From: JBHIER01 sp046760705 [NCBI: bacterium]
GTDB taxonomy: Bacteria > JBHIER01 > G020348925
Reading direction: 5' to 3'
Length of the DNA stretch: 5,384 nt
Assembly (NCBI GenBank): GCA_046760705.1
Contig: JBHIER010000253.1
Location: 1-5,384 of the forward strand
Part shown: positions 1,205 to 4,634 of the stretch, piece by piece
Numbering within the stretch: position 1 is the stretch's first letter
Layout of the letters: the number at the start of each line of letters is the position of its first letter
Position numbers and translations under genes: made by a program
The notes under the pieces: model-generated
What the model was told of the DNA's origin: nothing
Databases searched by the model: none
The model's input: only the letters and a program-made list of their open reading frames with translations

Positions 1205-1676
1205 AGAGAAGGTGTCCGGGTAAACAGAAGGATTGGATCGGTACCGACGGCAAGCAGATTGGGATCATGAATACGAGCGAAGCACTAACCATGGCCCAAC
1301 GGGAGGGACTTGATCTGGTAGAAGTGGCCCCCGACTCGAAACCACCTGTTTGTCGGATCATCGACTACGGGAAGTACCGTTATAAGCAGAGCAAAAGAGC
1401 CAAAGAAGCTCGAAAAAGACAACATGTTACTCATATTAAGGAGTTGAAAATTCGGCCCAAGATTGAAGATCACGATTTTCAATTTAAGGCCAAACATGCC
1501 AGAGACTTTCTCAGGTGAAACTGACCGCGATGTTTCGGGGCCGAGAGATGCATCACATTCAACTCGGAGAGAAGATCCTGCGACGGATGGCCGGGGTGCT
1601 GAGTGATGTGGCCACTGTCGAGCAGGAGACAAAAGTTGAAGGGCGAAACATGGTCATGGTTCTCGGCCCGAAGTAG
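1202..1676 (+). pseudogene. infC: Translation initiation factor IF3, disrupted by two frame-changing deletions
   Basis: IF3 binds the 30S subunit, prevents 50S joining and checks start codons. Its homology is present end to end but in three frames. Segment A (AUU 1202 to about 1234) encodes the extreme N-terminus, REGVRVNRRI. Segment B (about 1237 to 1515, TGA at 1516-1518) begins IGTDGKQIGIMNTSEAL, then carries DLVEVAP, PPVCRIIDYGKYRY, the basic linker, KELKIRPKIEDHDF and RDFL. Segment C (1515 to TAG 1674-1676) encodes VKLTAMFRGREM, QLGEKILRRMA, EGRNMVMVLGPK. At the A/B joint about 7 expected residues (R-A-x-E-V-R-L type) are absent. At the B/C joint about 5 (EEGDK type) are absent. A simple base-call slip would not remove these residues. 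Segment C alone lacks part of the C-terminal domain and a Shine-Dalgarno. rpmI follows after 22 nt. As written no full IF3 can be made; a faulty consensus is a serious alternative. Confidence 0.82.
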
Positions 1677-2694: not shown

Positions 2695-2997
2695 ATGGCA
2701 GAAAAGGACGATCACATACGGGTGAACATCTTTGGGACAGAATATCCGATCAAGGGAGATGCGGACCCGGCGTATATTGAAGAGATTGCAGGGTATGTTG
2801 ATGCGAAGATGAGGGAGGTGTCGAAGCTTTTGTCACTGCCTTCGATGACAAAGGTGGCCATTTTGGCTGCCATGAACATCGCCGATGAACTCTTTAAAGA
2901 ACGGGCTGAGAGAGAGAAGACCGTGTCGCAACTGGAAGAGCGAGCGGCCGAGATTTCTGGGTGGCTGGAAAAAGAGCTGATGGAAGATGCATCGTGA
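2695..2997 (+). CDS. zapA: Cell division protein ZapA
   Basis: This encodes 100 residues, a normal ZapA length. The N-terminal domain IRVNIFGTEYPIKGDADPAYIEEIAGYVDAKM (about 8-40) has the family 'v.I.G.ey.ik...d..yi..iA.yVd.kM' pattern. TKVAILAAMNIADELF (about 52-67) is the conserved helix, and a C-terminal coiled coil of Glu/Arg-rich heptads follows. ZapA dimers and tetramers cross-link FtsZ protofilaments at the division ring, and ZapB binds ZapA. AGAGG (2685-2689) lies 5 nt before ATG 2695. The gene is followed by a structured RNA, as in the zapA-6S RNA arrangement of many proteobacteria. Confidence 0.93.
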   Translation: MAEKDDHIRVNIFGTEYPIKGDADPAYIEEIAGYVDAKMREVSKLLSLPSMTKVAILAAMNIADELFKERAEREKTVSQLEERAAEISGWLEKELMEDAS

Positions 2998-3073
2998 TCT
3001 GTTGGCAGGAGGGAAGAATTGGACTGAACAGACGTAGTGCGTTGCATTTTGTTTACTGTTTTTAAGACCTAAT

Positions 3074-3172
3074 CCCTACTCGTTCGTGGTGATCGGCCTC
3101 GGAAAAGGCCCCTCAAAGGCGGGATACCCTTCGCCTGACCTCCACAGCGGTGAGTAGGGTTTTTTATTTTTT
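3074..3172 (+). ncRNA. Compact structured RNA, possibly a short 6S RNA (ssrS position)
   Basis: Positions 3074-3081 (CCCTACTC) pair perfectly with 3152-3159 (GAGTAGGG), and a T6-A-T6 run follows at 3160-3172. Inside are GTGG / CCAC (3086-3089 with 3142-3145), hairpin GGCCT / AGGCC (3095-3099 with 3106-3110) and hairpin AGGCG / CGCCT (3117-3121 with 3132-3136). The place just after zapA is that of 6S RNA in many proteobacteria. GTTCG after the first strand and AGCGGTG before the last strand resemble the conserved ends of 6S, and CCCCTCAAAGGCGGGATA recalls its 5' half. However, the body is about 86 nt, against roughly 160-190 nt for 6S, and the fold is a three-way junction. I am fairly sure of a structured RNA and unsure of the family. 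Confidence 0.58.
3160..3172 (+). terminator. T-run ending the post-zapA RNA
   Basis: TTTTTT-A-TTTTTT immediately follows the closing helix strand GAGTAGGG (3152-3159). Termination could use the closing helix of the RNA, whose enclosed region is itself folded; no tight local hairpin is evident. Confidence 0.5.
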
Positions 3173-3184
3173 GGTACCTGTTGA

Positions 3185-3246
3185 GCCACCAAGACACCGA
3201 GTCACAAAGGAAAGGCATGAACTTCGGCTCTTTGTGACTTAGTGGC
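3185..3246. repeat. Octamer-repeat / inverted-repeat intergenic element
   Basis: Three degenerate tandem octamers, CACCAAGA, CACCGAGT and CACAAAGG, occupy 3187-3210. The right arm, CTTTGTGACTTAGTGGC (3230-3246), is the reverse complement of the left arm (3185-3209) with one mismatch and one 8-nt octamer bulged out, giving a long hairpin with an approximately 20-nt loop. Dispersed elements of this CACCAAGA/CACAAAGA type are familiar from intergenic regions of various bacteria. That last point is from memory. Confidence 0.62.
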
Positions 3247-3278
3247 CATATCTGAATAGGACCCTTTTTGTTCGGCCT

Positions 3279-4634
3279 ATGAAATCGGACATCGGCACAG
3301 ATCTCTTCAAAGAGGAAGGAAGTGGGGAAGGAGTGGCCATAGCACCGCTGGCCCGGCGGATGCGGCCGACATCCTTGGATGAATTCGTCGGACAGGATCA
3401 CATCTTGCGGAGGGGGTCCCTCTTGCGCCGGATGATCGAATCAGACCGGTTGACATCCATCATTCTGTACGGTCCTCCGGGGACTGGCAAGACATCGCTG
3501 GCTCACGTTATCGCTCAAACGACCCGGTCGTGCTTCGAAAGGGTGAGCGCTGTCTCCTCCGGTGTGTCCGAGATTCGGAGTGTCGTCGGCCGAGCCAAGG
3601 CCCGGCTCCGCGAGGACGGAAAGCGAACTGTGCTCTTCATCGATGAGGTCCACCGTTTCAACCGGGCCCAACAGGACGTGCTTCTGCCAGAGGTGGAGGA
3701 GGGCCACGTTGTGCTCATCGGCACAACCGTTGAGAACCCCTTCTTCTACATCATCTCTCCGTTGATCTCCCGTTCGCATCTTTTCGAACTGAAACCTCTT
3801 GGGGACGAGGACTTGAAGAGAATACTTCGGCGAACGCTGGCCGATGGAGAGAGGGGACTCGGAGCGCTGAAGATTGAAATCGAGGAGGGGGCCCTTCAGT
3901 TCTGGATCGATCAGGCCGAAGGCGATGCCAGAAGGTTTTTGAACGGACTGGAGATTGCAGTGCTGAGCACGGCTCCTGATGAGAGCGGGAGGACTACTAT
4001 CACTCGGTACATTGCTGAGGAGTCTGTCCCCAGAAGGGTCTTTCGGCACGATCGCAGTGGAGACGACCACTACGATACCGTCTCCGCTTTCATTAAGAGC
4101 ATGCGCGGTTCCGATCCGGATGCGACGCTCTATTGGATGTCCAGAATGATCTCAGCCGGCGAGGATCCCCGCTATATTGCGCGGCGCATCGTCATCTGTG
4201 CGGCCGAGGATGTGGGCAACGCCGATCCTCAGGCCCTCGTTGTGGCCTCTGCGGCCCTCACCGCGGCCCAATGCGTGGGCATGCCTGAGGCTCAGATTCC
4301 CCTGGCTCAGGCCGCTCTCTATGTGGCCACAGCTCCCAAGAGCAATGCGTGTTATGTGGGGATCTCAAAAGCACTCCAGGAGGTCAAGGAGGGCAAGATC
4401 ATCCAGGTTCCCAACCACCTGAAAGACGCTCACTATCCGGGGGCAAAAAAGCTGGGCCGGGGCCGAGGGTATAAATATCCTCACTCCTATGAACATGGGT
4501 ACGTCGATCAGGAGTATGGCCCAGAGGGGAAAAACTATTATCAACCCGCCGATCGTGGGTACGAATCGGTCATAAAGAGGCGATTGGAGAAACTCCGGGG
4601 AAAGAAGGACGGACGGAAAGAGACAAGAGAGTGA
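3279..4634 (+). CDS. rarA: Replication-associated recombination protein RarA (MgsA)
   Basis: This encodes 451 residues, full length for the family. RarA is an AAA+ ATPase related to clamp-loader subunits and Mgs1/WRNIP1. It acts at stalled forks with SSB and the clamp, and is cytoplasmic. Visible motifs are the PLARRMRPTSLDEFVGQDH entry (about 23-41), Walker A GPPGTGKT (65-72), Walker B VLFIDEVHRF (118-127), the sensor-1 region IGTTVENPFF (147-156), the arginine-finger region ISRSHLFEL (163-171) and sensor 2 GDARRFLNGLE (215-225). The C-terminal oligomerisation domain follows, with RGSDPDATLYWMSRMISAGE, AEDVGNADPQAL, ATAPKSNA and DRGYE. ATG 3279 lacks a clear Shine-Dalgarno. GTG 3333 has purine-rich sequence before it, but ATG 3279 keeps the DLF motif often seen near family N-termini, so I prefer it. 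rny follows after 36 nt. Confidence 0.95.
   Translation: MKSDIGTDLFKEEGSGEGVAIAPLARRMRPTSLDEFVGQDHILRRGSLLRRMIESDRLTSIILYGPPGTGKTSLAHVIAQTTRSCFERVSAVSSGVSEIRSVVGRAKARLREDGKRTVLFIDEVHRFNRAQQDVLLPEVEEGHVVLIGTTVENPFFYIISPLISRSHLFELKPLGDEDLKRILRRTLADGERGLGALKIEIEEGALQFWIDQAEGDARRFLNGLEIAVLSTAPDESGRTTITRYIAEESVPRRVFRHDRSGDDHYDTVSAFIKSMRGSDPDATLYWMSRMISAGEDPRYIARRIVICAAEDVGNADPQALVVASAALTAAQCVGMPEAQIPLAQAALYVATAPKSNACYVGISKALQEVKEGKIIQVPNHLKDAHYPGAKKLGRGRGYKYPHSYEHGYVDQEYGPEGKNYYQPADRGYESVIKRRLEKLRGKKDGRKETRE

Follow-up and report, generated by a model that had tools for sequence, protein, structure and literature searches.

An infC gene spread over three reading frames by two short deletions

The infC locus and its closest relative

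The genes of the IF3 family (infC, TIGR00168; domains PF05198 and PF00707) are placed before rpmI and rplT and begin with an ATT start codon behind a strong ribosome site. The factor is described as essential (PMC8266586). In a genome survey a match to the C-terminal domain (IF3_C) above cut-off was found in 187 of 192 genomes; among the matches listed there was no internal stop, and a few were partial, one or two of these at contig ends, a frameshift being expected to appear in such a survey as a partial match rather than as a stop. The window, that is, the whole stretch of 5,384 nucleotides analysed here, shares the infC-rpmI-rplT order, the ATT start and the strong ribosome site with the family, and its infC pieces together cover nearly the full family length. 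It differs from the family in that infC lies in three frames, is short of 19 and 13 nt in comparison with its closest relative and has lost a loop of otherwise constant length.

The closest relative found is a locus of 'Gemmatimonadota bacterium bin29' (CP070758.1, here L001), which is 78% identical in L20. Both have the order manC, uppP, tRNAs, khpA, infC, rpmI, rplT, zapB, zapA, rarA and rny, but in L001 infC is one intact frame of 168 codons with an ATT start, and manC (358 codons) and uppP (267 codons, named by TIGR00753) are likewise whole. The genome to which L001 belongs has one IF3_C match only. Searches for closer relatives, by which the junctions could be polarised, returned none: a scan of genome contigs with L20 yielded 25 loci, the best two being 78% and 65% identical, and 95 of 98 genomes searched, that of L001 included, gave a match, the best (79%) being that same genome and the next reaching 63%. 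Searches of its order and of its class each returned this genome alone, two scans of viral contigs, for relatives of infC piece B (see below) and of RarA, found none, and a literature search for a paper on CP070758 found none.

The window itself contains four tRNAs (237-627), khpA, infC, rpmI, rplT, zapB, zapA, rarA and the start of rny, the rarA call depending on Pfam MgsA_C together with weaker RarA-type NCBIfam matches under their cut-offs and the rny call on a partial RNase_Y match. The odd length of the window and the genes cut at both its ends suggest that it is the whole of a short contig.

Pieces and breaks of infC

The infC gene and the other protein genes whose coordinates are given here lie on the forward strand. 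The infC leader carries a strong Shine-Dalgarno sequence (1187-1201; predicted pairing with the 16S tail -16.2 kcal/mol) that is the same in L001. Behind it the gene is spread over three frames, whose pieces stand in the correct order, each open across its homologous part, so that the single continuous frame across both IF3 domains is absent. Piece A (1202-1270) starts with ATT at 1202, is translated as IREGVRVNRRI... in alignment with L001 and then runs out of frame to a TGA at 1268-1270. Piece B (1237-1518), in which homology begins at about 1237, comprises the remaining N domain (PF05198), the linker and the first 27 residues of the C domain (PF00707), and piece C (1515-1676) the remaining C domain, beginning with VKLTAMFRGREM. 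Matched to TIGR00168, piece B covers positions 19-110 and piece C positions 117-168 of 170; taken alone, piece B scores 135.5 bits, above the curated cut-off of 60 bits, and piece C 54.2 bits, below it.

The first break, early in the N domain, lies at 1233-1237 (to a few nt). Between the ATT at 1202 and the ATG at 1267 the window has 65 nt and L001 has 84, a loss of 19 nt. The second break, at 1513-1515, was the subject of the original prediction, the description of which proved accurate in each particular. Frame B, claimed to end RDFL-R-stop, does so (...HARDFLR, TGA at 1516-1518) at exactly the coordinates proposed; frame C, said to start at 1515, opens there with GTG and stays open to 1676; and the net loss, put at about 13 nt, is precisely 13 nt against L001 (248 versus 261 nt from the ATG at 1267 to the GTG at 1515). 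Only two nucleotides (AG, 1513-1514) separate the last Leu codon (1510-1512) from this GTG. The break was correctly located inside the C-terminal domain, the tail of piece B matching IF3_C 2-28 and piece C IF3_C 35-86 (of 86).

Both breaks remove sequence of constant length. The five-residue loop between DFL and VK that had been attributed to the family at the second break, of which one residue is left in the window, and the stretch of 10 residues at the first break, of which 4 align in the window, have these lengths in 75/75 IF3 ORFs (from 75 fetched loci, amounting to 68 distinct rows; 29 of the loci had been selected because they gave the best matches to IF3_C, and this part is biased to whole genes). 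Each of the two losses equals 1 modulo 3, and together they therefore do not restore the frame.

The substitutions that distinguish the window from L001 retain the pattern of a coding sequence. At codon positions 1, 2 and 3 there are 11, 9 and 42 differences in piece B and 9, 7 and 21 in piece C, third positions thus taking 42 of 62 and 21 of 37. The ratio pN/pS is 0.13 in piece B, 0.26 in piece C and 0.25 in piece A (11 codons), compared with 0.06-0.24 in khpA, rpmI, rplT, zapB, zapA, rarA and rny, figures that are rough, since pieces A and C, which slightly exceed the range of their neighbours, offer few codons for the comparison and synonymous sites are almost saturated. Such values fit an infC that has experienced normal selection throughout, or almost throughout, its divergence from L001. 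Because the constraint in pieces B and C is like that of the neighbours, the lesions are either young or were never in a genome.

As a separate observation, about 26 nt covering the leader and the ATT start (1187-1212) are the same in both loci, an identity to L001 that the intergenic sequence around them does not nearly reach. infC regulates its own expression, and a conserved leader fits this; an Rfam scan of 1010-1700 (E up to 1) gave no match.

Clustering of the breaks and their probable origin

Beyond what had been predicted, two more gene-breaking deletions lie upstream of infC within the same 1.5 kb. In positions 1-200 a manC-like remnant (2-53), cut off and recognised by DNA alignment to L001, whose gene has the Pfam domains ManC_GMP_beta-helix and NTP_transferase, is fused to an uppP remnant (54-158), which lacks about 193 N-terminal residues and the 3' end and is identical in 22 of 35 positions to residues 194-228 of the L001 UppP. 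A Pfam search with the window's own manC-like piece (2-196) gave no match. Relative to L001 about 1085 nt are absent at the fusion and a further 107 nt or so after the uppP remnant. The four gene breaks all fall in the first 1514 of 5384 nt (0.006 under uniform placement, a post hoc figure), and khpA, which lies between them, as well as rpmI, rplT, zapB, zapA, rarA and the present part of rny, have no frame break or gene-breaking deletion in comparison with L001. The presence of the manC-uppP breaks in the same 1.5 kb points to an artefact or to damage confined to this region, and not to a peculiarity of infC. A fresh double lesion in a constrained essential gene, accompanied by two other breaks so close by, is best accounted for by an artefact or, with less probability, by a real recent lesion.

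We consider that the infC deletions are probably an artefact of assembly or amplification in the assembled sequence. The gene would then be an ordinary infC, whole in the living cell, and the two short deletions would have arisen in the sequence data, from wrongly joined contig ends, a chimeric amplification product or a low-coverage stretch. This reading is favoured by the designation of IF3 as essential, which is at odds with a gene in three frames, by the codon-position pattern that the pieces retain, by the near-universal occurrence of IF3_C and the lack of internal stops among the matches listed in the survey, and by the confinement of the four breaks to 1514 nt while the other genes are unbroken. 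Against it, a de Bruijn assembler does not readily drop 13 or 19 nt unless long exact repeats are present, and the infC junctions appear to share no bases when the distant L001 is taken as a proxy for the ancestor. By the same proxy, which is too distant to settle the matter, its synonymous sites being nearly saturated, the uppP 3' junction also shares none and the manC-uppP junction shares 3. A scan of 1180-1700 for direct repeats found no family, a result of little weight, since a repeat-mediated deletion leaves one copy; inverted repeats of 8 nt are present there. Literature searches on small deletions in metagenomes, on MDA chimeras and on misassembly of MAGs found no paper. As the evidence stands, the first 1.5 kb of the contig is not to be trusted without reads.

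That the deletions are real and recent, the region being a decaying copy or the lineage having a second infC elsewhere that does the work, is a possibility to which we give tentative credence. The deletions are short and clean in an otherwise good coding sequence, and the adjoining loss in uppP and manC is large and resembles ordinary gene loss. An infC carried outside the main chromosome can be envisaged, given that the gene occurs on 74 records of a plasmid collection, all less than 60% identical to piece B, although one listed record of 2.9 Mb may itself be a chromosome. However, the genome of the relative has its single IF3_C match, and the genes around and downstream of infC are not only unbroken but constrained, contrary to what is expected of a decaying duplicate. 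Should the lesion be real, this lineage could dispense with an initiation factor that is essential and nearly universal, or would have it duplicated or split.

The last of these, an IF3 that works as three translationally coupled peptides, divided inside each of its domains and assembling on the 30S subunit, is improbable, and so is the mode of synthesis that the sequence would offer it, namely termination followed by re-initiation at ATGA (1267-1270) and GTGA (1515-1518). In its favour, at both breaks the stop stands exactly over a start (NTGA overlaps) and the pieces are still constrained. Yet equal cuts placed in the 68 distinct relatives give a stop/start overlap in 16 cases at the first site and in 31 at the second, so that both together would be expected in roughly one case in nine, if independent, and the overlaps show no excess over chance. 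The pairing with the 16S tail predicted at the two internal starts (-3.3 and -2.9 kcal/mol) falls short of the median found for sampled positions (-5.0); however, the unbroken khpA and rarA reach only -3.9 kcal/mol, so that weak ribosome sites alone do not exclude translation. The residues lost are, moreover, in stretches whose length is constant in the 75 ORFs compared. A limited literature search for a split-gene IF3 found none. Programmed frameshifting or bypassing that joins the frames can practically be dismissed, for although the three are correctly ordered and open over their homologous parts, residues are absent, so that no frameshift yields a normal IF3, and a search for an XXXYYYZ slippery heptamer in 1202-1270 and 1440-1518 found none. 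Internal ribosome sites much weaker than that of the ATT start, albeit not far below those of the intact khpA and rarA, the lack of a slippery heptamer in the stretches scanned and overlaps at chance frequency uphold the doubt, expressed in the original prediction, that the gene is naturally split into working halves.

Downstream genes and intergenic stretches

Directly downstream of infC, rpmI (L35; 1699-1890, TIGR00001) and rplT (L20; 1915-2274, TIGR01032) are intact and align with L001 without gaps, and length gaps are confined to zapA (1 residue) and rarA (3 residues). In many bacteria the place downstream of rplT is occupied by pheS and pheT; here the interval between rplT and zapB (2274-2284) is without a gene, as it is in L001. 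This interval and the stretch after tRNA-Cys are shorter in the window than in L001, which can be ordinary divergence.

The gap between zapA and rarA is, by contrast, about 95 nt longer in the window than in L001. It holds a GC-rich hairpin (3066-3170), closed by the stem CCCTACTC/GAGTAGGG and accompanied by a T run, which may represent a terminator or else a small RNA; its folding energy is not unusual (z -0.85), and an Rfam scan of 2990-3290 (E up to 0.1), covering the hairpin, gave no match. A palindrome-like stretch seen by eye further along the same gap (3185-3247; CACAAAGG ... CTTTGTG) may be a small dispersed repeat.
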